From contig NZ_JAUTAR010000001.1 of NCBI RefSeq assembly GCF_030818695.1, forward strand, positions 796,001-860,000: DNA of 64,000 nt. The letters run 5' to 3'. Below are positions 25,031 through 41,094 of the stretch, one piece after another. This DNA is from Chryseobacterium sp. SORGH_AS_0447. Lineage in GTDB: Bacteria; Bacteroidota; Bacteroidia; Flavobacteriales; Weeksellaceae. The stretch's first letter is position 1; the number at the start of each line of letters is the position of its first letter. The translations under genes and the position numbers were made by a program. The notes under the pieces were generated by a model, which saw only the letters and a program-made list of their open reading frames with translations, was not told where the DNA came from and did not search any database.

Positions 25031-26547
<1,517 letters not shown>

Positions 26548-26766
26548 TAGAGTCTCGTTAATACGAGAATAAACAAAATTACGGACATGCAAATGTCCAC
26601 AGGACTTACTTAAAGTTCAAGCTTTAGTTTTTTATTGGTTGCTTATATTAAAAATACAAAACCCACTAGAAATTAGTATAAGGGATAAGAGATTGAGAAT
26701 GATAATGAAGAAAAGTATGCGGTATGCAAATATCAATTATAACTCATCAATCATCACTCATAACAG

Positions 26767-26840
26767 AGTCTCGTAGCTCAGCTGGTTAGAGCGCTACACT
26801 GATAATGTAGAGGTCGGCAGTTCGAGCCTGCCCGAGACTA
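26767..26840 (+). tRNA. ileT: tRNA-Ile (GAT)
   Basis: 74 bases without CCA. Acceptor AGTCTCG pairs with CGAGACT; anticodon loop CTGATAA gives GAT; T loop TTCGAGC. Lies in the 16S-23S spacer, as usual. Confidence 0.95.
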
Positions 26841-26920
26841 CTAATTAAGTTGAAGGTTTAAAGTTTATGGTTCAAGGTTAAGGCATTGAACATGAAACCT
26901 TAAACATTAAACTACTAGAG

Positions 26921-26995
26921 GGGGAATTAGCTCAGCTGGCTAGAGCGCCTGCCTTGCACGCAGGAGGTCAAGGGTTCGACTCCCTTGATTCTCCA
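26921..26995 (+). tRNA. alaT: tRNA-Ala (TGC), with one extra G
   Basis: Anticodon loop CTTGCAC gives TGC; acceptor GGGGAAT pairs with ATTCTCC. Between the T stem (AAGGG/CCCTT) and the 3' acceptor strand there is an additional G at 26987 that is absent from the otherwise identical copy at 63807-63880. The extra base would interrupt the T-acceptor stack, so this copy may be defective, or the base may be a sequence error. Confidence 0.9.
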
Positions 26996-27154
26996 CAGTT
27001 TTGGAAGTTTGATTTAAAAGTTACGGATGGAGCCAAAAACAACATCTGTTCATCAGACGGAAGAGAAGAAATTAAGATCATTGACATTAACGGTAAAGAC
27101 ATCACAAAGAGAAAACCGAGCACTTATAAGTGCTTGAGTAACCTAAAAATAGGA

Positions 27155-29908
<2,754 letters not shown>

Positions 29909-30063
29909 TTGCCTATTGGTTCTCAATAAAGCCTTATAAGTGCAACCAAGGTTTTGCCTTTGTGATGAAATTTACCGATAAATTGATTTAAGGTTCAATG
30001 TTTAAAATTCAAAGTGACAAACTTTGAACATAGAACTAAAAACCTTAAACCTATATACAACCT

Positions 30064-30173
<110 letters not shown>

Positions 30174-30401: not shown

Positions 30402-30517
30402 CCCTAGCCCCGATAGCAGCAAATACCCCACAGCAAGTGGTGGAAAGCCAGGCATCAGCAAAGGAAAAGCCAAGCCGTGAGGAGTAGAAACGGATAGCGG
30501 GAAATAGCTCCTGAAAT
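30402..30517. repeat. Dispersed intergenic element, copy A
   Basis: Begins CCCTAGCCCCGATAGCAGC and ends GATAGCGGGAAATAGCTCC. A diverged copy lies in opposite orientation at 60502-60620 (shared blocks: AGGAGCTAT, TACTCCTC, CTGTGGGGTA). From general knowledge, related non-coding elements with these ends recur in many Flavobacterium and Chryseobacterium genomes; function unknown. Nothing else of note is seen between 30220 and 30584. Confidence 0.65.
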
Positions 30518-30626: not shown

Positions 30627-31925
30627 TTAACTTTGATATCCTAATAATTTTCTCATCTGGTAGAAGAATCTTTCAATCAGCCGTAAATCTTCCGTTACAA
30701 TTTCAGCACTTCCTTTAAGTTCTTTGTCGAAAGGAAGGGTTTTGTTATAGCTTGTTTTCAATCCTTTCGGGAGAAGTACATCGACATAATAGTTTCCGTC
30801 TTTATCAGGAGAAAGAGAGATGTTCTGAACTTTCCCTTCTACAATTCCATATTCCTGATAACGGTAATTATCCAGTTTGATCAGAACTTTTTCACCTGAA
30901 ATAATTTTTCCTGAATTGGCTGCCGGTACAGACATTCGGCCAACCAACTTTTCCTTATTTTCGGGAAGAATCGATAAAATAACGTCACCTGCTTTTATAA
31001 ACTGGTTTTCCCCGAAGAATTGTTGGAAACTGGCGATTCCGTTTGTATTTGAAATGATCAAGTAATTCTGTTCCCATTGTTTCAGAGACTTTCTCAACTG
31101 CTCGAACAATTGCAGGGTCTGCGAAGAATAAGTAATTTTATCTTTTTCGGTATTAATGGCAGTACCACTTTTGGTCTTATTAAGATTAGATATCGCTTCT
31201 TCCATCTGCGAAAGAGAAATATTAATGTTTTCCAGATTTTGTTGTGCCTGCAGAAATTTTATCTTTTCATTTTCAAGTTCCATGGAAGCAATTACTCCCT
31301 GATTATATAGATCCTGAGAACGTTGATAGTTTTTCTTCGTAATTTCATATTTTGCCTGTTCAAGTTTCTTTTGCTGCTTTGTTGTTGCAATTCTTAATCT
31401 GTACTCGGAAAGGCTCTGATTGGCCGCCAAATTTTCCGGAGCGTAAGGCTGAAGTCTTGTAAATAGGGTTTCGTCCTGAAATGCTTTTGCAAAGCCATTA
31501 TAGTCACTTTGAAGTTCGCCGAGTTTAAAATGAGAGACTTCATTTAGAGGAAACGACAATAACTGATCAGGAGCCATTGAATCTATAATTTTTTTAAGCT
31601 TTAAAACGTCTTCGTAATTCGCCGTTGACTGCATCACCATCAACACCTGATCCTTTTTGACCTGCTGGTGTTCTTTAATAAATATTTTTTCAATTTTCGC
31701 ATTGGTTCTTGCTTCCAATTTCTCAGGAGGATTCTGCGAAGTAACAACAATTGGAGCAGGAATAAATTCCGGATACCGGATGACATAGCTCATCATTAAA
31801 ATTAGCACCAGAATTAAAAATATAATGGTATTTCCCCAACGGATCATCCAATGAGGTGGTTGGGTAAGAATATCCTGAACGCTTTCTGAGCGTAGTTCAA
31901 TATTGTCTAAGACGTCTTTTTCCAT
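30627..31925 (-). CDS. HlyD-like membrane fusion protein for peptide export
   Basis: 432 residues. One transmembrane helix at about residues 31-52, then a lipoyl/barrel-sandwich half (EARTNAKIEKIFIKEHQQVKKDQVLMVM), a long coiled-coil hairpin (residues about 175-270), the second half (IASFQQFFGENQFIKAGDVILSILPE) and a beta-barrel domain. This is the periplasmic adaptor of a type I-like exporter; the partner is the C39 ABC transporter at 32522-34714. An outer membrane TolC-like protein is not encoded nearby and must come from elsewhere. It is the last gene of the minus-strand cluster and is preceded, 13 bases before its ATG, by a strong hairpin (31938-31965). Confidence 0.9.
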   Translation of the reverse strand: MEKDVLDNIELRSESVQDILTQPPHWMIRWGNTIIFLILVLILMMSYVIRYPEFIPAPIVVTSQNPPEKLEARTNAKIEKIFIKEHQQVKKDQVLMVMQSTANYEDVLKLKKIIDSMAPDQLLSFPLNEVSHFKLGELQSDYNGFAKAFQDETLFTRLQPYAPENLAANQSLSEYRLRIATTKQQKKLEQAKYEITKKNYQRSQDLYNQGVIASMELENEKIKFLQAQQNLENINISLSQMEEAISNLNKTKSGTAINTEKDKITYSSQTLQLFEQLRKSLKQWEQNYLIISNTNGIASFQQFFGENQFIKAGDVILSILPENKEKLVGRMSVPAANSGKIISGEKVLIKLDNYRYQEYGIVEGKVQNISLSPDKDGNYYVDVLLPKGLKTSYNKTLPFDKELKGSAEIVTEDLRLIERFFYQMRKLLGYQS

Positions 31926-31937
31926 ATTTTAAATATA

Positions 31938-31965
31938 AGCAATCTTCAAAAAATTGAAGATTGCT
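31938..31965 (-). promoter_or_regulatory. Hairpin between peptide gene 1 and the hlyD-like gene
   Basis: AGCAATCTTCAA and TTGAAGATTGCT form a perfect 12-bp stem around four A. The minus-strand downstream sequence is only moderately T-rich (TTATATTT), so partial termination or RNA-end protection of the peptide message is more likely than a full stop. Confidence 0.7.
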
Positions 31966-32000
31966 GTTTCATGCATTAGATCGAATCAAAATCTATCTCA

Positions 32001-32210
32001 TTAAAAGCCATCATTACAGACTTGCGACGAATACATATTCTTATGAACACATGAACCTCTTTTCTCGCACCATAGGAGGTTGCTGCAGCCGCAATCAAAA
32101 GGCTCTCCTGGAAGTGGCGGTTCTGTAGGAAAGTAAGCTCCACAAGTACCGATGCCTCCTCCGTTTACTGATTTTAGATTCTCTCTCGTTAATTTTTTTA
32201 AATTTTTCAT
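32001..32210 (-). CDS. Double-glycine leader, Cys-rich secreted peptide 1
   Basis: 69 residues. Leader MKNLKKLTRENLKSVNGG, cleavage expected after Gly18 by the C39 domain of the ABC exporter, leaving a 51-residue core with six cysteines (23, 40, 42, 48, 54, 65). The core has a Pro-rich stretch (PTEPPLPGEPFDCGC). It is a close paralogue of peptide 2: the last five cysteines have identical spacing (2, 6, 6, 11 residues). Last of the peptide genes in the transcript, before the hlyD-like gene. The type is known from Bacteroidota as bacteriocin-like GG-leader peptides; the activity of this one is unknown. Confidence 0.85.
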   Translation of the reverse strand: MKNLKKLTRENLKSVNGGGIGTCGAYFPTEPPLPGEPFDCGCSNLLWCEKRGSCVHKNMYSSQVCNDGF

Positions 32211-32230
32211 AGTATAATTGTTTAAATGGT

Positions 32231-32449
32231 TTAAAGTCGACAGTTTTCAGGGCTGTAAAAGTTTATATGGACACAGGCTCCCATTTTTTCGCACCATGCC
32301 AGAGAACTGCAAGAACAATTGTATGGTTGTCCAGGCATTGGCGGATCTACAGGAAATTGATCGCCGTCGCAGCCTCCTCCTAAGCCTTCTCCATCACTTC
32401 CTTTTACAGATTTCAGGTCTTTTCTGGTTAGTTTTTTAAAATTTTTCAT
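32231..32449 (-). CDS. Double-glycine-type leader, Cys-rich secreted peptide 2
   Basis: 72 residues. Leader MKNFKKLTRKDLKSVKGS: the expected Gly-Gly is Gly17-Ser18, so processing may be different or less efficient; a GGG at residues 24-26 just before the first cysteine is an alternative site. Six cysteines (27, 45, 47, 53, 59, 70); the last five match peptide 1 in spacing. The motif PPMPGQPYNCSC parallels PPLPGEPFDCGC of peptide 1. First gene of the third peptide run, preceded by the repeated element at 32473-32504. Confidence 0.83.
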   Translation of the reverse strand: MKNFKKLTRKDLKSVKGSDGEGLGGGCDGDQFPVDPPMPGQPYNCSCSSLAWCEKMGACVHINFYSPENCRL

Positions 32450-32472
32450 AGTAATTGATTTGTTGATTGACT

Positions 32473-32504
32473 CCTACTCTTTTAAAGCTTTTCGGTTCCG
32501 CTTT
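32473..32504 (-). promoter_or_regulatory. Repeated 32-bp element upstream of peptide run 3
   Basis: Almost identical to 35828-35860: both carry CCTACTCTTTT, then AAGCTTTTCGG, then TTCCGCTTT (plus-strand reading). Both lie between a machinery gene and the first peptide of a run. Could be an internal promoter, an RNA leader or a processing site. Confidence 0.65.
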
Positions 32505-32521
32505 TTATTTATGAAATAAAC

Positions 32522-34714
32522 TTAATTTCCAAGTTCAAGCTGATTTTTCACCAACCTATAATATTCGCCTCTTAAATCAACCAATTCGGCATGGCTCCCT
32601 TCTTCTACCAATTTTCCTTTGTCTAAAACAATAATCTTATCGGCATGTTTTACGGTTGAAAGGCGGTGGGCAATTACGATTGCTGTCTTTCCTTTGAAGA
32701 ATTGCTCAAGATTTTCCATAATGACTTTTTCATTATTGGCATCCAATGCCGATGTGGCTTCGTCAAATAAAATATACTCGGGAGATTTGTAAACTGCTCT
32801 TGCAATAAAGAGCCTTTGTTTTTGTCCACCACTTACTCCAAGGCCTTCATTTCCGATTTTTGTATTGTAGCTTAGGGGCAGTTCTTCTATAAAATCTTTA
32901 ATATTCGCAATTTCTACAGCTCTTCTCAGTTTATTTTTATCGACATAATCTTCACCGACAGCAACATTATTCGCTATGGTATCGTTAAAAACATAACCTT
33001 CCTGCATGACCACACCACAGTGATCTCTCCAGAAGCGGGCAGAAATATTTTTAAGCTTTGTATTTCCTAGCCGTATTTCTCCTTCGGAAGGTTCGTAAAA
33101 CTTCATGAGCAATTTCAGCAAAGTCGTTTTACCACTTCCACTGGCTCCTACAATAGCCGTGGTTTTCTGATAAGGAATGGTTAAACTTAAATTTTCAAAA
33201 ACAGGAACATCCGAGCCGGTATATCTGAAAGACAGATTTTCAATTTCAATATCTTTTCCTGGTAGCTCATGGCTATACTGCTCGTCTTTATTTTCTTCAT
33301 CCTCTTTATCATGAATTTCACCCAGTCTTTCCAAAGAAATTTTGGCATCCTGTGTCTGTTTAATAAAATCAATCAATTGCAATAAAGGACTGTTCAACTG
33401 TCCGATGATATATTGCACGGAAAGCATCATCCCCAGTGTAAGATTCCCTTCGAGAACCAATTTTGCGGAGAGAAAACTCACCAAGATATCTTTCATTTGA
33501 TTAATGAAATTCCCGCCGACTGATTGCCACTGCTCTAGAGAAAGGGACTTTATTCTTATTTTAAAAAGTTTTACCTGTAAAAATTCCCAATCCCAGCGCT
33601 TTTGCTTTTCAGCATTGTGCATTTTGATTTCTTGCATCCCGTTGATAAGCTCGATGACTTTGCTCTGCTCCTGAGAAATCTGGGAAAACCTTTTATAGTC
33701 CAGTTCTTTTCTTCTGCCCAGAAAGAAGCTGATCCATCCGATATAAGCTGCTGCTCCGATGATATAAACAATAAACAGCCTGTAGTCATAGAATAAAAGG
33801 ACAATGCTGAATATAATAAGATTGACTAATGAAAACAGAGTGTTCAGTGAAGAACTCGTTAAAAGCTGCTCGATTCGGTGATGATCATTGATCCGCTGCA
33901 TGATATCTCCTGTCATTCTTGTATCAAAGAAACTGATCGGGAGTTTCATCAGTTTGATGAAGAAATCTGAAATGATGGAAATATTGATCCTTGCCGAAAG
34001 GTGTAGTAAAATCCAGCTTCGGATAATTTCAATACCCATTCTTCCCATAAACAACATGATCTGGGCTAAGAGGACCAGATAGATGAAGTTAAGATCCTGA
34101 TTCTGAATCCCAACGTCCACAATACTTTGGGTAAGAAAAGGAAAGATTAAAGAAAGTAAACTTCCTGCCAAAAGGCCTACGGCCAGTTGTATGACAAGCG
34201 ACTTGTATTTCAATAAATATTTGGAAAGAAATGAAAAACTGGCTTTACTTTCTTGGTCATCAAATTCCGTCTGGAAAAATGCCGGAGTGGTTTCTAAAAT
34301 CAATACAATACCTTCTTCCGTTTTTTCATTTGCATTTTCGCCGATCCACAATTTAATGAATTCCTCTCTGGTGTAAGTTATTAAGCCATAGCCTGGATCA
34401 GAAACATAGACTTTGTTATTTTTATCAATTTTATAAACTACAACAAAGTGATTTTTGTTCCAGTGTACAATACAGGGAAGCGGTACTTCTTCAGCGAGAG
34501 ATTCAAAATTAATCTGAACTCCTAAAGAACGGAAGCCCAGGTCTTCAGCTGCATCGCTTAAACCTAGTAAGCTGCTGCCCTCACGGGTCGTTTCTGAGAG
34601 ATTACGAATTTGTTGTAGAGAAATGCTTTTTCCGTAATGTTTACTTACGATACGAAGGCATGTAGGACCACAGTCTTTAGAATCCGGTTGGCGATAGAAA
34701 GGAAAGGATTTCAA
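32522..34714 (-). CDS. C39-peptidase ABC exporter for GG-leader peptides
   Basis: 730 residues in three parts. Residues 1-130 are an active-looking C39 peptidase: Gln9 and Cys15 in RQPDSKDCGPTCL, His89 in KNHFVVVY and Asp106 in VSDPGYG. Residues about 160-440 hold the six membrane helices of a type IV ABC exporter. Residues about 490-730 are the ATPase: Walker A GASGSGKT (Lys529), signature GVSGGQKQR, Walker B YILFDEATSALD and H-loop AHRLSTV. Such transporters cut the leader after Gly-Gly and export the core in one step. It sits inside the peptide cluster, after the five-gene peptide run. Confidence 0.96.
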   Translation of the reverse strand: MKSFPFYRQPDSKDCGPTCLRIVSKHYGKSISLQQIRNLSETTREGSSLLGLSDAAEDLGFRSLGVQINFESLAEEVPLPCIVHWNKNHFVVVYKIDKNNKVYVSDPGYGLITYTREEFIKLWIGENANEKTEEGIVLILETTPAFFQTEFDDQESKASFSFLSKYLLKYKSLVIQLAVGLLAGSLLSLIFPFLTQSIVDVGIQNQDLNFIYLVLLAQIMLFMGRMGIEIIRSWILLHLSARINISIISDFFIKLMKLPISFFDTRMTGDIMQRINDHHRIEQLLTSSSLNTLFSLVNLIIFSIVLLFYDYRLFIVYIIGAAAYIGWISFFLGRRKELDYKRFSQISQEQSKVIELINGMQEIKMHNAEKQKRWDWEFLQVKLFKIRIKSLSLEQWQSVGGNFINQMKDILVSFLSAKLVLEGNLTLGMMLSVQYIIGQLNSPLLQLIDFIKQTQDAKISLERLGEIHDKEDEENKDEQYSHELPGKDIEIENLSFRYTGSDVPVFENLSLTIPYQKTTAIVGASGSGKTTLLKLLMKFYEPSEGEIRLGNTKLKNISARFWRDHCGVVMQEGYVFNDTIANNVAVGEDYVDKNKLRRAVEIANIKDFIEELPLSYNTKIGNEGLGVSGGQKQRLFIARAVYKSPEYILFDEATSALDANNEKVIMENLEQFFKGKTAIVIAHRLSTVKHADKIIVLDKGKLVEEGSHAELVDLRGEYYRLVKNQLELGN

Positions 34715-34738
34715 TGATTATTTTTTTATTTATAAATA

Positions 34739-34763
34739 AGTTGCCGCCGGTCTGACGGCAACT
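34739..34763 (-). promoter_or_regulatory. Hairpin between peptide run 2 and the ABC exporter gene
   Basis: AGTTGCCG (34739-34746) pairs with CGGCAACT (34756-34763), followed on the minus strand by TATTTATAAAT. It lies 22 bases after the stop of peptide 3 and before the exporter start at 34714. It fits a leaky terminator that keeps exporter messages below peptide messages. Confidence 0.65.
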
Positions 34764-34784
34764 ATTTTATTCAAATCTTGTGGC

Positions 34785-34985
34785 TTAGAAATAGCAATAT
34801 TTATTGCAAACTCTTTCACAGCCGGATAAGGTAACATCAGGATTGGATGAATTTGGATCAGCCTGACATGCTGCAAGTGTAGTGTAACATGCAGTTGCAG
34901 ACTCCTGTCTCTGTACACATTCAACTGAAATTCCTCCCTTAATAGATTTCAAGTTTCCTCTTGATAACTTTTTTAGATTTTTCAT
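34785..34985 (-). CDS. Double-glycine leader, Cys-rich secreted peptide 3
   Basis: 66 residues from the ATG at 34985; longer readings that start upstream run into the previous gene's region and lack the family start. Leader MKNLKKLSRGNLKSIKGG, 48-residue core with cysteines 23, 33, 40, 56, 60, 64. The end (CERVCNKYC) and the first half (VEC-x9-C-x6-C) show it to be a paralogue of peptide 5 (CIQVCNKYC). Last gene of the second run, followed by a hairpin and the exporter gene. Confidence 0.85.
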   Translation of the reverse strand: MKNLKKLSRGNLKSIKGGISVECVQRQESATACYTTLAACQADPNSSNPDVTLSGCERVCNKYCYF

Positions 34986-35011
34986 TGTCAGGTTTGTTTT
35001 GTGCTTTTTAA

Positions 35012-35200
35012 TTAAAATCCATATGCGGATACACATTCTCCTCCAACTCTGCAGCCCAATCTGTTTCCATTCTGATCCGGTGCAGACATTAAGCATGGAG
35101 CCGCATCAAAATTATTATGGCATAGTTGTGTATGTTCTTGGGTAAAACCACCTTTAACATTTCGAAGAGCTTCTCTTGAGATTTTTTTGAGATTTTTCAT
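35012..35200 (-). CDS. Double-glycine leader, Cys-rich secreted peptide 4
   Basis: 62 residues. Leader MKNLKKISREALRNVKGG, 44-residue core with four cysteines (27, 36, 50, 56) and two histidines. Not obviously similar to the other cores. It lies in the middle of the five-gene run between peptides 5 and 3, with gaps of 18 and 26 bases. Confidence 0.83.
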   Translation of the reverse strand: MKNLKKISREALRNVKGGFTQEHTQLCHNNFDAAPCLMSAPDQNGNRLGCRVGGECVSAYGF

Positions 35201-35218
35201 AATAAGATTTAGGATTAA

Positions 35219-35401
35219 TTAACGACAATATTTGTTACATACTTGTATGCAGAGTTCATCAAGATTAGGATCAATATTAGCTTGACATGCACTTAGGCTT
35301 GAAAAACAAGTCATTGTTGCTTGGGCTCTTGCACATTCTTCAGTAATTCCCCCTTTTACGTTTTTCAAATTCTCTCTTGAGATTTTTTTTAAATTTTTCA
35401 T
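35219..35401 (-). CDS. Double-glycine leader, Cys-rich secreted peptide 5
   Basis: 60 residues. Leader MKNLKKISRENLKNVKGG, 42-residue core with cysteines 23, 32, 39, 51, 55, 59, ending CIQVCNKYCR. It shares the cysteine order and the C-terminal C-x3-C-x3-C motif with peptide 3 but has shorter loops (8 against 9 and 11 against 15 residues), which suggests a duplicated and diverging pair. Confidence 0.85.
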   Translation of the reverse strand: MKNLKKISRENLKNVKGGITEECARAQATMTCFSSLSACQANIDPNLDELCIQVCNKYCR

Positions 35402-35431
35402 AGTACTAATTTGTTTTAATTTGTTTTTATA

Positions 35432-35593
35432 TTAAAAAGGACATTGATCGGCACTTCTGCACAGTCCATCAAATCTTCCTCCGTTTCTACAGCAGATGGA
35501 TGTTCCGGGACAATAATCATCACCGGTCCTGCAAGCAATTCCGCCAATAACTGTTTTTAGCTGGCTTCTTTCAAGTTTCTTTAGATTTTTCAT
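35432..35593 (-). CDS. Double-glycine leader peptide 6, knottin-like cysteine pattern (53 aa)
   Basis: A 53-residue frame that falls below usual length cut-offs. Leader MKNLKKLERSQLKTVIGG, then a 35-residue core, IACRTGDDYCPGTSICC up to residue 35 and ending CRSADQCPF. Six cysteines at 21, 28, 34, 35, 45, 51 give C-x6-C-x5-CC-x9-C-x5-C, the order seen in inhibitor cystine knots. It is framed by peptides 7 (16 bases upstream) and 5 (30 bases downstream) and has the same leader, so it is very likely real. The knot is an inference from spacing only. Confidence 0.85.
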   Translation of the reverse strand: MKNLKKLERSQLKTVIGGIACRTGDDYCPGTSICCRNGGRFDGLCRSADQCPF

Positions 35594-35609
35594 ATCAATA
35601 AGTTTTTAG

Positions 35610-35807
35610 TTATCCGTAAATAGGATCCCAACAGTCTGATGGCTTGCACTGCGTTCCACTCATACATAAGACATTACAGCCTGACAGGCACATTACTTCG
35701 TTACGATTTGGGCAATACCATCCGCCCATACCGTCACTTACCGGCGGACCATAGCCACCCTGAATCATTCTCAGATCCTCTCTGGGGATTTTCTTTAGAT
35801 TTTTCAT
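35610..35807 (-). CDS. Double-glycine leader, Cys-rich secreted peptide 7
   Basis: 65 residues. Leader MKNLKKIPREDLRMIQGG (with Pro8 where the others have Ser/Thr/Glu), 47-residue Gly-rich core with cysteines 32, 40, 44, 48, 54, 59. First gene of the five-peptide run, directly downstream of the repeated element at 35828-35860 and of the redox gene at 35885. Confidence 0.85.
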   Translation of the reverse strand: MKNLKKIPREDLRMIQGGYGPPVSDGMGGWYCPNRNEVMCLSGCNVLCMSGTQCKPSDCWDPIYG

Positions 35808-35827
35808 TGTAATTAATTTTTAGATTT

Positions 35828-35860
35828 CCTACTCTTTTCAAGCTTTTCGGATTCCGCTTT
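35828..35860 (-). promoter_or_regulatory. Repeated 33-bp element upstream of peptide run 2
   Basis: Plus-strand blocks CCTACTCTTTT, CAAGCTTTTCGG, ATTCCGCTTT match 32473-32504 with one substitution and one inserted base. It includes the short palindrome CGGATTCCG. It lies 20 bases upstream of the ATG of peptide 7. Confidence 0.65.
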
Positions 35861-35884
35861 AAATTTGTCCTAATATAGTGAATA

Positions 35885-37429
35885 TTATATATCAAAAACT
35901 ATTTGAGAATTAATTTCTTCATCCTCCGTTAATTCGTCGATGAAGTAATAGATATCTTCGCGGTCATATTTGTCAGGAAACTGGTAACCGTTGATTAAAA
36001 TGATGGGTGTAAAATTAAGGCCTGCATTTCTGTTCTCTGTCGACATTTCAATAAGGGGTGTCAGATCTTCATTGTTTGAAGCGGCTCCAGCTTTTTGTCT
36101 TATTTTATTTTCGTTTTTGTTTTCAAACCAGTATTCAACCAGATGTAAAAATTCCTGCGTCGACTTGTTTTTATAAGTATACATGAAATCTGACATAAGA
36201 TGGGTGAACTTTTCATTCTGCTTGTCAGGGGTATAATTAAACCTCATCTGTACGGAAATCTCATTCGGATATTTACTCAGTAAATTTTCCATGATTTTGT
36301 GTGCATCTTTACAGAATCCGCAATAGGGATTGGAAACAATCGAAAGGTGAAGCTTGGCGTCTCTGTTTCCTACAAAGAACGTTTCATTATCACTGAAACT
36401 TATTTTTTCATTTTCCACAAGTTCTCTCTTGAACAGCTCGTAGTTTCTTTTAAACCTTAAGTTTTTGGCATTAGATTTTTGCAGGGTCTCTTTATCTTGA
36501 AGGGTATTATTTAAATATAAGACTACCGAAAATACAGCAATCCATAAAATAAGGCTTAGTAAAGCAGTCCGTATATCAAATACAGCATTTTCAAACAATA
36601 GAAGTCCTACAAACAATTGGACAATTAATACAGAGATAATCAGCAGGCAGACGCGGCAAAATGTTTTTTCTATGAATCCCTGAATATATAGCGAATAGCC
36701 AATTGCAATAAGAGAAGCGAAGGTGAATCCTTTGATGATAAATGACGTAGCAGGTAAAAATAATCCCAGAACGGTTATTCCAATAAAATAGATTAATGAA
36801 AAATCAGAGAATTTCAAACCTAGAATTCTGGTTTTATCCTGATTGATAATTTTATTACAGGAATTTACATTTTGATTTCCGGCGGCATCCCCGCAGATAC
36901 TCCCGATAACGTTAGAAGTATTTCCAAATTTCTGATTGAAAATTTCCAGGGAAATATAGACTCCTGCCAGAGAAAGAATGGTAAAGATAGCTTCGTACCA
37001 TGCCTGGCTTGTAATAGAATAAAGTAAAATTACTGCAAAAACAGCATAGATAAAAGGTTTGTAACTCGTAACAGATTTACTTTCCACTTTATCTTTTTCA
37101 AAAAGCAAAACAAAATCTGTGGATTTTTTGTAAAGCTCATCTTTATTTAATGTTTTTGCTTTGTCGGAATATATTGAATATTGGCTGCCATTTTTCTTTA
37201 CTAATGAAAACGAGTTGTCAACAATGGCAATAAATTCTTCCGGCAGCTCGTCCCAATATTCTTTATCCAATTCATAGGCATCGTTTCTTACGCCCATGAA
37301 ATTAAGAGTATCACTGAAGGCTAATGCTGAAGGGTAGTTGGGATGTGAGTTGAACTGAAAAAGAAACTCTTGTTTGTCGAGTTTTAAATGGTTAATAAGT
37401 TTGTCCAATAGCATATTAATATTTTTCAT
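35885..37429 (-). CDS. Three-domain redox protein: C39-like, VKOR and thioredoxin-like
   Basis: 514 residues. The first 110 residues resemble a C39-peptidase domain (HPNYPSALAFSDTLNFMGV, then a beta core) but lack the catalytic Cys, so they may bind rather than cut leaders. Next come about five membrane helices with the VKOR centre FCRVC (Cys258, Cys261) and a loop pair of cysteines (SICGD, NSCNKI). The C-terminal part is a periplasmic thioredoxin-like/DsbA-like domain with NPYCGFC (Cys370, Cys373). VKOR-thioredoxin fusions pass electrons from substrate thiols to quinone and so make disulfides. In this cluster the obvious substrates are the Cys-rich peptides. Confidence 0.88.
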   Translation of the reverse strand: MKNINMLLDKLINHLKLDKQEFLFQFNSHPNYPSALAFSDTLNFMGVRNDAYELDKEYWDELPEEFIAIVDNSFSLVKKNGSQYSIYSDKAKTLNKDELYKKSTDFVLLFEKDKVESKSVTSYKPFIYAVFAVILLYSITSQAWYEAIFTILSLAGVYISLEIFNQKFGNTSNVIGSICGDAAGNQNVNSCNKIINQDKTRILGLKFSDFSLIYFIGITVLGLFLPATSFIIKGFTFASLIAIGYSLYIQGFIEKTFCRVCLLIISVLIVQLFVGLLLFENAVFDIRTALLSLILWIAVFSVVLYLNNTLQDKETLQKSNAKNLRFKRNYELFKRELVENEKISFSDNETFFVGNRDAKLHLSIVSNPYCGFCKDAHKIMENLLSKYPNEISVQMRFNYTPDKQNEKFTHLMSDFMYTYKNKSTQEFLHLVEYWFENKNENKIRQKAGAASNNEDLTPLIEMSTENRNAGLNFTPIILINGYQFPDKYDREDIYYFIDELTEDEEINSQIVFDI

Positions 37430-37547
37430 CTAAAATAAGCAGATGTTTGAAAAAAACAAATACTTTTTTCAAATTAACGTGATTTATAATTGTTTTATTG
37501 TTTACAGGTATGCTATATGCGACTAGCGAGTAATAGATTACATTTTA

Positions 37548-38639
37548 TTATTTTATAAAATTCTGTAAGTCTTTAGCTGTAGATAAGCCGACTGTTGCCT
37601 TTATGATCTTAAAATCATTATCAACAAGAACCGTATAAGGAATCGCCCCGTTCAGCCTGAAACGCATCTGGACTTTTTCGTAATCCGGATCTTTTTCATT
37701 GATAACGAATTGCTTCCAGTTCATCTGCTCTTCTTTTAAAGCTTTTTTCCATGCATTTTTATCTGTATCGATGGAAATTGAGATAAATTCTAAATCTGAA
37801 TCCTTACTGTTGTAAATTGTCTTTAAAAAAGGAATCTCCTGTCGACAAGGTCCGCACCAGCTTGCCCAGAATATAACCAGATGTTTTTTATATCTGAAAT
37901 CGAGAACCGCAGATTTTTTGCCGGTAGTGTCTTCAAGCAAAGGCATCGCCGAATTCTTTTCATTAGATCTTTTCTTATTATAGGCAGATAGTTTTTTAAA
38001 AGATTCACTTTCCGTAATATCCCCTTTGAATAGCTTTAAAAATTCATCGACCTGTTGCGGTGAAAAGCTGTTTTTGTTGTCCTCAATATTATATAATAGA
38101 TGATAAGAAAAGGGATATTGTTTAATTTTATTTTCTATTAATATGATATTTTTTGAATTAGTATCATCAAATAAATCACAATCGATATTATACAAAGCAT
38201 TCGTCTGCATTCCGGCAGAAATTTTTGGGCTTGTCACAATTTTGTATTTAGGATCTAGAGTCAAATCCTTTGGATTAAATTCCTTTAACTGACCATTAAT
38301 TGAAATAATAGAATCAGAAAAGAAATATTGAGACTGACAACCCGATCCTTTGTAGTTAGCATTAGTGGGAAAGGAAAAGGATCTTTTTATCCCATTATGA
38401 TCTATATGTTCTATTCCTAAATATTGTGGCTCAGCAGTTTTCCGGATGTATATTATTTTAAATTTTCCTTTTTTCGTTTCTACACTATCTATACGGTTAT
38501 TATATTTGTCTTTGTACAAATATAGTGTACCATCCTGTAGATTAGGAATATTGCCTTGGATTACAGTTTTATATTTATTATTACTACAAGATAGAGTAAA
38601 GAAAGCAATAATTAGTGATAATAGTAATTTATAATTCAT
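37548..38639 (-). CDS. TlpA-like thioredoxin lipoprotein
   Basis: 363 residues. Lipoprotein signal ending FTLSC, an N-terminal DUF4369-like beta domain (VIQGNIPNLQDGTLYLYKDK), a middle helical region, and a C-terminal TlpA/AhpC-type thioredoxin fold with WASWCGPCRQEIP (Cys262, Cys265) and the cis-Pro strand GAIPYTVLVD. Such proteins usually reduce or isomerise disulfides in the periplasm. It lies between peptide 8 and the VKOR fusion, so a role in shuffling the disulfides of the exported peptides is plausible; a general thiol function is the alternative. Confidence 0.88.
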   Translation of the reverse strand: MNYKLLLSLIIAFFTLSCSNNKYKTVIQGNIPNLQDGTLYLYKDKYNNRIDSVETKKGKFKIIYIRKTAEPQYLGIEHIDHNGIKRSFSFPTNANYKGSGCQSQYFFSDSIISINGQLKEFNPKDLTLDPKYKIVTSPKISAGMQTNALYNIDCDLFDDTNSKNIILIENKIKQYPFSYHLLYNIEDNKNSFSPQQVDEFLKLFKGDITESESFKKLSAYNKKRSNEKNSAMPLLEDTTGKKSAVLDFRYKKHLVIFWASWCGPCRQEIPFLKTIYNSKDSDLEFISISIDTDKNAWKKALKEEQMNWKQFVINEKDPDYEKVQMRFRLNGAIPYTVLVDNDFKIIKATVGLSTAKDLQNFIK

Positions 38640-38660
38640 AACTCATAATATTTAATTATA

Positions 38661-38691
38661 ATGAAGTTTGCCACAACTTGGCAAACTTCAT
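38661..38691 (-). promoter_or_regulatory. Hairpin between peptide 8 and the tlpA-like gene
   Basis: ATGAAGTTTGCCA (38661-38673) is exactly complementary to TGGCAAACTTCAT (38679-38691) around a 5-base loop. On the minus strand it is followed by TATAATTAAATATT. Same position (after a peptide run, before a machinery gene) as the hairpins at 34739 and 31938. Confidence 0.75.
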
Positions 38692-38720
38692 ATATTTAAT
38701 TATAAAGGTGAAAATTTAAG

Positions 38721-38960
38721 TTAGCATCTTGATTGACCACCATTAGACGTGACATTAGTGTGCCCTAAACCTGTATCACAATAACTGCTTTTAACTGGTA
38801 CGGAAACATCACCAACCTGTTGCCATTCTACCGTAGTAACACATTCTCCGTCTCTTCTAATCCACTGTCCATCAGTTGATTGTATAAAGTGAGAACATGC
38901 CCGTCTTCCACCAAATACATCTTTCAAATCTTGTCTTGAAAGTTTCTTTAAATTTTTCAT
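38721..38960 (-). CDS. Double-glycine leader, Cys-rich secreted peptide 8
   Basis: 79 residues from the ATG at 38960; an in-frame ATG 42 bases upstream would place 14 unrelated residues before the leader. Leader MKNLKKLSRQDLKDVFGG, then a 61-residue core, the longest of the set, with four cysteines (22, 40, 61, 79), the last being the C-terminal residue. First gene of the cluster, next to the divergent regulator gene at 39217. Confidence 0.82.
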   Translation of the reverse strand: MKNLKKLSRQDLKDVFGGRRACSHFIQSTDGQWIRRDGECVTTVEWQQVGDVSVPVKSSYCDTGLGHTNVTSNGGQSRC

Positions 38961-39069
38961 TTGCTTTATTTTTTGAATTAATAATTTGCTTTCGCCATAC
39001 AATCCCTGGCATGGGTTTCACTGATCAGTAGTTCAAAATATATCTGTACATATATACTTTGAGTTTTTA

Positions 39070-39079
39070 AAAGCGCTTT
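39070..39079. promoter_or_regulatory. Candidate operator palindrome
   Basis: AAAGCGCTTT, a perfect 10-bp palindrome in the 256-base divergent region between peptide 8 and the XRE regulator. XRE proteins commonly bind such sites, but no second copy was found, so this is tentative. Confidence 0.3.
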
Positions 39080-39168
39080 ATCAATATTGAATTTTCAAAT
39101 CTATAAAATTTTTTTTCACTTTGTATGGATAAAATTTGCGATTTTTTTGCGATTCTTAAACATTTCGC

Positions 39169-39200
39169 TTGCAAAATTTGCATTCAGTTTTATACATTTG
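39169..39200 (+). promoter_or_regulatory. Promoter of the XRE regulator gene
   Basis: TTG at 39169-39171, 21 bases, then TACATTTG at 39193-39200: both Bacteroidota boxes, 16 bases before the ATG at 39217. Confidence 0.6.
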
Positions 39201-39216
39201 CTGAAAACCACAAAAA

Positions 39217-39582
39217 ATGATACAAGGAAGATTAAGAAATCTCCGAAAGAAAAAAGGGATAAGCCAGAAAGAAATAGCAAGAATATTATCTATAGACATT
39301 TCTAGCTATTGCCGTAAAGAAAACGGGAAATCGAAAATTCATGATGATGAGTGGGAGAAACTGGCCACCATCTTAAATGTTTCTGCTGATGAGATTAAGG
39401 AAAAAGAGAATAGTGGAATGGTGTATGATGACAATCCAACATCTAGTACAAATTCTGGAAATTATAATCAATATTTTAATCTTCCCAATTCAATACTTGA
39501 AAATTTGCATGATTACATAAGCATTCTGAAACATGAAAATGAATCTTTAAAAGCAGAATTAGAAAAATTGAAATATAAATAA
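39217..39582 (+). CDS. XRE-type helix-turn-helix regulator (paralogue 1)
   Basis: 121 residues. N-terminal HTH (RLRNLRKKKGISQKEIARIL ... YCRKENGKSKIHDDEWEKLATILNV), a linker with NQYFN, and a C-terminal coiled-coil helix (ILKHENESLKAELEKLK), probably for dimerisation. It is transcribed away from the peptide cluster across a shared upstream region, so it is the first candidate for its regulator. A protein of the same plan is encoded at 44378-44746. Confidence 0.85.
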   Translation: MIQGRLRNLRKKKGISQKEIARILSIDISSYCRKENGKSKIHDDEWEKLATILNVSADEIKEKENSGMVYDDNPTSSTNSGNYNQYFNLPNSILENLHDYISILKHENESLKAELEKLKYK

Positions 39583-40005: not shown

Positions 40006-41094
40006 TTATACCCTTTCGTAATTTAATAAAAGATCAATGAAATAGGAATAGGTAACGGATCCTTCCTGTTGATTACTCTTTAAAAAAAGGTTATTGGTAA
40101 ATCCGAAAAAATCATCGAGCCAACCCTGATGTTGTAATACAAATGCTTTTTCATAAGCTCTGTCTCTCTTCATCTGAGGGGAATAATTTTCCAGCATTGT
40201 TTTTACAAATTCCGGATCTTTTTCTACAATAAAATTCAGCAGGCTTTTTAAAGTAAAATATTCTGTGCTGTAACGCAGTTCCGAGTTTTTAGAATTGATG
40301 CCGATCAGATAACCTACAAAATTGGCTTCCTGTTCCCGGGCAAAACCGAGCTGATGAGAACTCTCGTGAGCCGATGTAAAAGGAATATAAGTATTGGGCA
40401 ACTGCGAATTGTACTGCGCTTCTGCGGTAAACGGATTATAATATCCCAGAATACCTGTAAAGCTCATTACGTTTCTGAAAAGACTGGGTTTAAATGAATT
40501 GACTTCAGGAGCTTTTTTACCGGAAATGGATTTTGGAAGACTGGCCTGCCCGGCAAGAATTTCTTTTTGTATGGATCTTAGATCTGTGATAATAAAAATT
40601 CCGTTTCGGTCTTCCTTCACCAGACTTCTGGTTTTTTTACACTTTTCCAGGTATTTTAGAGCCAGAACTTTTGCTTTTTCAGTAGTTGGTTCTTCCTGAG
40701 TAGAAAGTTTTTTGATGATTGGCGTCTGGAAATACAGCATTCCCCAGAATATCTGATATAGAAAATAGAAAATATTAACCCCAATTAAAAGGGTAAGGAG
40801 AGAAAAATGCCTGCGTTTCTTTTTAAATGAAATAACAATATAATAAAGGAGAAAAACTCCTATCAGGATATAAAAAACATCTCCGAAGGAAAACGGGATC
40901 CACGCAAAAACTGCCTGATGGACTTCCTTCTGAATTTCAAAAAAGCTTTCAAAAAAAGAAACTACCATTGCTGATTTTGAAAACAGGTAGAACAAAAGAA
41001 ATTGGGCAAGTAATATACCTGCCCAACATCTTTTCTTATGTATTATTTTTGTTTTATTAGTGACCACTGCCTTTTGTGATTTTGTCAAGATCAA
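40006..41094 (-). CDS. DUF3810-type membrane protein with HExxH motif
   Basis: About 362 residues. Three membrane helices in the first 130 residues, then a large domain with TSAHESSHQLGFAREQEANFVGYL, an HExxH-type zinc-binding motif with a downstream Glu, as in zincin metallopeptidases; this matches the DUF3810 family of Bacteroidota. The start is unsure: the longest frame begins at a TTG at 41094, overlapping the sugar permease by 38 bases, and a GTG at 41067 is another option. No ATG fits before the first helix. Substrate unknown. Confidence 0.75.
   Translation of the reverse strand: MILTKSQKAVVTNKTKIIHKKRCWAGILLAQFLLFYLFSKSAMVVSFFESFFEIQKEVHQAVFAWIPFSFGDVFYILIGVFLLYYIVISFKKKRRHFSLLTLLIGVNIFYFLYQIFWGMLYFQTPIIKKLSTQEEPTTEKAKVLALKYLEKCKKTRSLVKEDRNGIFIITDLRSIQKEILAGQASLPKSISGKKAPEVNSFKPSLFRNVMSFTGILGYYNPFTAEAQYNSQLPNTYIPFTSAHESSHQLGFAREQEANFVGYLIGINSKNSELRYSTEYFTLKSLLNFIVEKDPEFVKTMLENYSPQMKRDRAYEKAFVLQHQGWLDDFFGFTNNLFLKSNQQEGSVTYSYFIDLLLNYERV

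Follow-up and report, generated by a model that had tools for sequence, protein, structure and literature searches.

Bacteroidetocins, which reportedly act as antibacterial peptides on Bacteroidales with BamA as their target, are the closest tested system to a gene cluster of Chryseobacterium sp. SORGH_AS_0447 that is analyzed here. The cluster lies at positions 30,627 to 39,582 of the window, i.e., the whole 64,000-nucleotide stretch of contig NZ_JAUTAR010000001.1 under study, and it encodes eight cysteine-rich peptides with double-glycine (GG) leaders, a C39 ABC exporter, an HlyD-family adaptor, and a protein in which a C39-like domain, a VKOR domain, and a thioredoxin domain are fused. As described in the accessible part of the source, bacteroidetocin regions contain four genes, among them one for a four-cysteine GG-leader peptide with a 15-residue leader and one for a C39 ABC exporter, and the thiol oxidoreductase and a protein with five transmembrane segments are separate genes whose deletion attenuates activity (Coyne et al., 2019, PMC6671954). 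No immunity gene was found there, and the evidence for disulfides came from comparing the migration of reduced and unreduced samples. The two systems have in common their occurrence in Bacteroidota, a GG-leader cysteine peptide, a C39 ABC exporter, and a thiol oxidoreductase, as compared by description. In contrast, no C39-like-VKOR fusion is described in the accessible bacteroidetocin text, and the window appears to hold one hub for many dispersed peptides.

The leader family is already known and named: NF047798 (leader_Chryseo, "bacteriocin-like protein") models the 18-residue leader only and is silent on maturation, exporter, and oxidase. Dedicated disulfide helpers in bacteriocin clusters, which the fusion resembles, include the PedC/BdbB-type accessory oxidoreductases of class II bacteriocins and sublancin; to our knowledge, these have no leader-binding domain. 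The Synechococcus VKOR (3kp9/4nv2) shares with the fusion the VKOR bundle, a loop cysteine pair plus CXXC motif, and a joined redox domain, and the fusion differs from it by an extra N-terminal C39-like domain, an extra transmembrane helix (TM0), and a DsbA-like partner. In HlyB-type systems, the C39-like domain (CLD) belongs to the ABC exporter itself, whereas that of the window is fused to a disulfide-forming enzyme. Cytoplasmic-side VKORs are represented by the Aeropyrum pernix enzyme and by the engineered "inverted VKOR" of CyDisCo, for neither of which we know of peptide leader recognition or an export partner. Both reportedly perform VKOR chemistry on the cytoplasmic side, as is proposed here for the fusion (CyDisCo: PMC5471842). 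Prior work covers the exporters, the named leaders, and disulfide helpers located beside bacteriocins; the C39-like-VKOR-thioredoxin enzyme as a putative leader-guided, probably inverted maturase was not met in the open-access literature searched, where no paper joining a VKOR-C39 fusion with GG peptides turned up (subscription papers lay outside the search). A database note on C39-like domains in some VKORs may exist.

The reading that we lean towards, with expectations somewhat better than even, is a hub in which the VKOR fusion would oxidize precursors in the cytoplasm under the guidance of their leaders, and the C39 exporter would then export many dispersed disulfide peptides. Read from right to left on the minus strand, the cluster starts with peptide 8, a TlpA-like gene, and the VKOR/thioredoxin gene; a block of five peptides (7 to 3) separates these from the C39 ABC exporter, beyond which lie peptides 2 and 1 and, last, HlyD. 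An XRE gene is divergent from peptide 8. The domain assignments of the sequence-only reading were all borne out by Pfam, which identified C39 plus ABC, HlyD, VKOR plus Thioredoxin_4, TlpA-like (DUF4369 plus thioredoxin), and HTH_3 domains. The main features are as follows.

30627..31925, minus: HlyD-family adaptor of the exporter (PF13437, E 2.8e-12; PF13533)
32001..32210, minus: GG-leader peptide 1, 69 amino acids, 6 core cysteines (NF047798, 37.9 bits)
32231..32449, minus: leader peptide 2, 72 amino acids, 6 core cysteines, leader ending in GS (34.4 bits)
32522..34714, minus: peptidase-containing ABC exporter (PF03412, E 4e-35; PF00664; PF00005)
34785..34985, minus: GG-leader peptide 3, 66 amino acids, 6 core cysteines (35.5 bits)
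35012..35200, minus: GG-leader peptide 4, 62 amino acids, 4 core cysteines (34.4 bits)
35219..35401, minus: GG-leader peptide 5, 60 amino acids, 6 core cysteines (37.4 bits)
35432..35593, minus: GG-leader peptide 6, 53 amino acids, 6 core cysteines (32.7 bits)
35610..35807, minus: GG-leader peptide 7, 65 amino acids, 6 core cysteines (23.7 bits, barely above the cut-off of 23.5)
35885..37429, minus: C39-like/VKOR/thioredoxin fusion, 514 amino acids, proposed leader-guided disulfide-forming enzyme (PF07884, PF13462; AlphaFold model)
37079..37429, minus: C39-like domain of the fusion, apparently degenerate, residues 1-117, without cysteine
37007..37060, minus: TM0, extra transmembrane helix before the VKOR bundle, residues 124-141
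36578..37006, minus: VKOR four-helix domain, residues 142-284; loop cysteines 179/191, CRVC 258-261
35918..36415, minus: DsbA-like thioredoxin domain, residues 339-504, CGFC 370-373
38721..38960, minus: GG-leader peptide 8, 79 amino acids, 4 core cysteines (35.4 bits)

Leader peptides and their cysteine-rich cores

All eight window peptides passed the curated cut-off of NF047798 (range 23.7-37.9 bits), and the leader ended in GG in seven of them and in GS in peptide 2. The eight leader genes and their unlike, cysteine-rich cores (four or six cysteines) were present as the sequence-only reading had described them, but its wording of near-identical leaders did not hold, as pairs shared 9-16 of the 18 residues (mean 12.1). 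Across the genome of the strain, searched as one contig of 4.37 Mb, NF047798 identified 25 leaders above cut-off, eight in the window and 17 elsewhere, among 37 matches at E ≤ 1. Of these matches, 33 were read out as peptides (25 above and eight below cut-off), all of them short; the four not counted were two whose frames span 1712 and 869 codons, one second match in a read frame, and one (13782) in an unfetched stretch. At E ≤ 0.001, the leader profile matched 25 places in this genome and none in 14 control genomes, and at E ≤ 1 it matched in two of the 14, in neither case above cut-off.

The same genome contained one C39 domain above cut-off, that of the cluster exporter, and one VKOR, the cluster fusion; a second, weak VKOR match sits in a frame resembling a cytochrome bd oxidase subunit by eye. 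The exporter and the oxidase of the cluster are therefore plain candidates for serving all the peptides. Instead of a self-contained eight-peptide cluster, the locus looks like a hub through which at least 25 leader-bearing peptides would be processed and exported. The earlier proposal that disulfide-bonded GG-leader peptides have a pathway dedicated to them was well supported by cysteine parity, by co-occurrence over 118 genomes, and by gene neighborhoods inside and outside the genus; what had to be given up, with 25 leaders genome-wide, was its confinement to eight peptides.

The exporter includes the domain set of a peptidase-containing ABC exporter (C39/PCAT), with the C39, transmembrane, and ATPase domains all over cut-off, and its residues C15, H89, and D106, which we take to be catalytic, were invariant in five aligned exporters. 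Among the leaders tested (24 of 33), a hydrophobic residue was found at positions -4 and -12 in all 24 and at -7 in 20. According to a study on the LahT C39 protease, these three positions occupy a hydrophobic groove, and its abstract adds that degenerate C39-like domains recruit substrate (PMC6363468). At these positions the leaders carry what a C39 domain recognizes, and cutting after GG by the exporter is predicted.

The cores of the 33 peptides contained four to eight cysteines each, with an even number in 32. Similarly, 131 distinct cores of fetched loci, taken only from leaders scoring ≥20 on a purpose-built profile, formed 58 clusters at 50% identity, of which 18 had four cysteines, 35 had six, two had eight, two had five, and one had none, i.e., the count was even in 55, odd in two, and zero in one. 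The cysteine-free core (L073/L092; L and G numbers denote loci and genomes), which amounts to a short tail and looks like a broken copy, was counted as zero and kept in the tally, and weaker-scoring leaders outside this count included cores with seven (L054, L057) and two cysteines (L067, L082, L083). Among 142 distinct cores of 80 named relative loci, whose genomes partly overlap the 131-core set, 31 had four cysteines, three had five, 106 had six, one had seven, and one had none.

The main exception to even parity was a conserved family with five core cysteines, which occurred in the strain itself (C1:290030, L012) and in L084, L085, L086, L091, and L167-L169; the sole odd peptide of the strain, with five cysteines, has five-cysteine relatives in other species. 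Such peptides may form disulfide-linked dimers. Additionally, two families with GGQLCLI and CCPPP motifs were kept across species (L013, L086-L089, L091), a conservation that hints at a maintained role rather than at fast-changing toxins.

Five of the eight peptides were compared with Pfam; their best score for Bacteriocin class IIc (PF10439) was 15.3 bits, below the gathering score of 27.1. The earlier claim that no lanthionine, radical-SAM, YcaO, or MNIO-type enzyme is present holds for the five large cluster proteins and the DUF3810 neighbor, where Pfam identified no lanthipeptide, radical SAM, YcaO, or MNIO enzyme, the rest of the genome lying outside that search. The peptides probably leave the cell to act in competition between bacteria or in signaling. 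No immunity gene was found for the bacteroidetocins either (PMC6671954), so its absence here favors neither a toxin nor a signal.

The VKOR fusion and the side of oxidation

The four-helix fold, the loop cysteine pair, and the CXXC motif of VKORs were all found in the fusion, the AlphaFold model of which had a mean predicted local distance difference test (pLDDT) score of 79.1. Solved VKOR chains aligned to residues 142-284 only, with the helix TM0 (residues 124-141) preceding them. The C39-like match at the N terminus was weak (PF03412, E 0.14, below cut-off), and PDB sequence searches gave no match for the N domain and one chance match for the VKOR part alone. All 30 closest copies of the fusion contained exactly six cysteines, all in redox motifs and none before the VKOR loop pair. 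The catalytic cysteine of C39 peptidases was absent from the N domain, and the single cysteine found at 51-66 in four distant rows was not in the first helix. The N domain appears to be a peptidase-dead C39-like domain. With C39-read residues in the leaders and, in the fusion, a C39-like domain that would be unable to cut, leader recognition by the fusion is the simplest interpretation. In two genomes of the genus, the fusion gene is apparently in pieces (G037:C1:4131904-4133435 and G062:C1:1647093-1648611), and leaders are still present in both.

VKORs were compared over a sample of 198 Bacteroidota genomes, where 42 genomes contained a VKOR and 53 VKOR places were found. Of 51 VKORs with a C39-like domain, 50 had their greater density of lysine and arginine (K/R) on the redox side, as did none of 14 without it. 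The latter place K/R on loops that in standard VKORs lie in the cytoplasm, whereas in the former they occurred on the loops with the redox cysteines; the charge bias of the window fusion is thus opposite to that of non-fused Bacteroidota VKORs, the Synechococcus VKOR lying outside this comparison. The sole exception among the 51 was a near tie, taken as one of two L206 proteins. Four fused rows of A2, which the helix-placing script put in the class without TM0, were kept among the fused ones on account of their membership in that aligned family, and the redox side is favored by their loops as well; the script gave no parse for 11 of 30 loci (L172-L176, L183, L186, L188, L191, L195, and L199). 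A PDB search with a non-fused VKOR returned 29 DsbA/thioredoxin-type sequences and no VKOR, so the charge comparison includes no VKOR of experimentally known topology. By eye, the N domain of the fusion has no signal peptide, and if it stays cytoplasmic, TM0 would flip the VKOR bundle. Sequence features thus predict an inverted fusion, with the C39-like domain, the VKOR site, and the thioredoxin facing the cytoplasm, and oxidation would then precede export. A periplasmic C39-like domain was the first reading from helix parity and was demoted by the charge comparison.

In the hub that we favor, precursors would be synthesized in the cytoplasm, and the fusion would bind their leaders through its peptidase-dead C39-like domain. 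Going by the chemistry of the families, the thioredoxin CGFC would then oxidize the core cysteines, and VKOR would hand the electrons to quinone. Oxidation is predicted on the cytoplasmic side, with TM0 inverting the VKOR bundle. The folded precursor would finally pass to the C39 exporter, where, as expected from its family, the leader would be cut and the peptide exported with HlyD. A bolder proposal, for which our expectations fall a little short of even, is a new maturase class in several Bacteroidota families: a leader-guided, cytoplasm-facing disulfide synthase composed of a dead C39 domain, an inverted VKOR, and a DsbA-like domain, which would act before export. The C39 fold would thereby be used twice, once to read leaders for folding and once to read and cut them for export.

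A more conventional order of events is conceivable and, in our view, rather unlikely. The C39 exporter would cut and export reduced cores, which a periplasm-facing fusion would oxidize, and the C39-like domain would dock on the exporter or be periplasmic. The active sites of solved VKORs face the periplasm or lumen, and the fusion model matches these VKORs. Bacteroidetocin disulfides are also thought to be due to the thiol oxidoreductase of their cluster, with the side left unstated in the accessible text (PMC6671954). However, a real TM0 would force a domain of 109-179 residues (upper bounds) without a recognized signal across the membrane, a leader-type domain outside the cytoplasm would meet no leader, and the charges of fused VKORs are biased in the opposite direction to those of non-fused ones.

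Co-occurrence within and beyond the genus

Among 118 genomes of the genus, a VKOR-fusion match was found in 111, leaders in 108 (E ≤ 0.001), and an exporter match in 115 (E ≤ 1e-100). Leaders were present in 108 of the 111 genomes with the fusion and in none of the seven without it. Four of these seven (G011, G059, G104, and G115) keep an exporter-like match (E about 1e-207, C39 part unchecked), so leaders follow the fusion better than the exporter (Fisher p 2e-9 vs. 4e-4, phylogeny ignored). Leader-bearing genomes had 1-48 leaders at E ≤ 0.001, and these counts are lower bounds, as only part of the candidates was scored in rich genomes. The fusion-bearing genomes without leaders were G028, G052, and G089; in G052 the fusion is a distant one only (28% identity), and a cysteine-rich GG peptide of another type adjoins it. 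The seven fusion-less genomes had no PF07884 (VKOR) match at E ≤ 0.01, and none of the ten leader-less genomes had a DsbB match at the same threshold. With seven genomes lacking matches to VKOR, DsbB, and leaders alike, the genus can evidently live without the enzyme, which looks dedicated.

The search for the same gene set, which the sequence-only reading had put forward as a check, covered 71 full-length named Chryseobacterium loci, which were located by the VKOR fusion itself. Matches by tblastn to the exporter and HlyD were found in all 71, leader peptides (purpose-built profile) in 59, DUF3810 in 57, XRE in eight, and TlpA in four; the low counts of the last two mark both as accessory. 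In 16 further stretches of the genus with paralogous fusions (23-33% identity), cysteine-rich leader peptides were identified by profile in nine (L054, L057-L060, and L062-L065), often with another leader type and in no case with an exporter match ≥35%. Of the others, L066 had one peptide by a looser pattern, L067 had one with two cysteines, and L052, L053, L055, L056, and L061 had none. In L057-L060 and L062, the paralogous fusions are paired with one cysteine-rich core type, whose end resembles GNGDSYCNGTFCCG, and the leader differs, as would be expected if each class of peptide were matched to its oxidase.

Outside the genus, 20 stretches covering 21 of the 53 VKOR places were examined, picked mainly for long open frames. 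GG-leader cysteine-rich peptides were found in 15 of 15 fused loci (nine from one family) compared with 0 of 5 non-fused loci, including L215, whose VKOR was checked by eye to be non-fused. With a first pattern, 12 of the 15 fused loci had yielded peptides; a wider pattern was then applied equally to fused, non-fused, and shuffled loci, and the shuffled control averaged 0.5 peptides per 15 loci, with three at most. The fused loci included 35 peptides, 32 of which have an even number of cysteines; two of the 35 leader calls (L207 and L211) look misplaced by eye.

These distributions bear on whether the fusion is the general disulfide oxidase of the cell and simply happens to lie in the cluster. 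Although it is the sole VKOR above cut-off in its genome, which has no DsbB match, this explanation was demoted and seems quite improbable: the seven genomes of the genus without a VKOR or DsbB match lack just these leaders (other oxidases are possible there), nine of 16 paralogous-fusion stretches have leader peptides of their own, and peptides accompany every fused locus examined outside the genus. Least probable of all, the cysteines would serve metal binding, which is conceivable for four- and six-cysteine cores, or later modification, being kept reduced by redox proteins such as the TlpA-like one of the window, a type that is often reductive, but cysteine counts are almost always even and TlpA matches in just four of the 71 loci, which were found by the VKOR fusion.

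RNA elements, neighboring genes, and significance

The DUF805b RNA (RF02914), said to stem from work by Weinberg in 2017, was found by script 17-23 nucleotides 5' of leader-peptide start codons in 32 of 37 elements, in loci chosen around the cluster. Among the five elements missed, three precede leaders that the pattern of the script disallowed (L012, L079, and L088), which would bring the count to 35 of 37. Five of six elements in the genome of the strain precede leaders, where two of the six lie under the gathering score and 150 of 4023 first-look candidates were scored. DUF805b also occurs in genomes without these leaders and is thus not exclusive to them. Examples are found at L088 10065-14909 and, in the strain itself, at C1:2107036, 289829, and 269545. 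The elements of the window and the two accessory genes are listed below.

32471..32504, minus: DUF805b RNA element, 21 nucleotides 5' of the peptide 2 start (RF02914, 47.4 bits, gathering 35.6)
35826..35860, minus: DUF805b RNA element, 18 nucleotides 5' of the peptide 7 start (RF02914, 53.0 bits)
37548..38639, minus: TlpA/ResA-like protein, lipobox-like start by eye, accessory (PF13905, PF08534, PF14289)
39217..39582, plus: XRE-type regulator, divergent, accessory (PF01381, E 3.2e-10)

The DUF3810 protein at 40006-41094 (PF12725) is a conserved neighbor of the cluster. On the other side, a complete rRNA operon (16S, two tRNAs, 23S, and 5S) directly adjoins it at 25031-30173, and other loci likewise have rRNA near the cluster, namely L073 with a 5S gene and L081 with an entire operon. 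A Flavo-1 RNA match at 30402-30508 scored 33.0 bits, under the gathering score of 42.

If the proposed hub is true, it would give access to a large and still poorly mapped range of secreted peptides rich in disulfides, and to the enzyme responsible for their folding. Disulfide formation would then be a leader-directed modification within the reducing cytoplasm, for which the thioethers of lanthipeptides are a comparable case. The same enzyme might also be put to use in E. coli, for producing disulfide peptides in the cytoplasm, and its role could explain why VKOR is retained in bacteria without general Dsb machinery.

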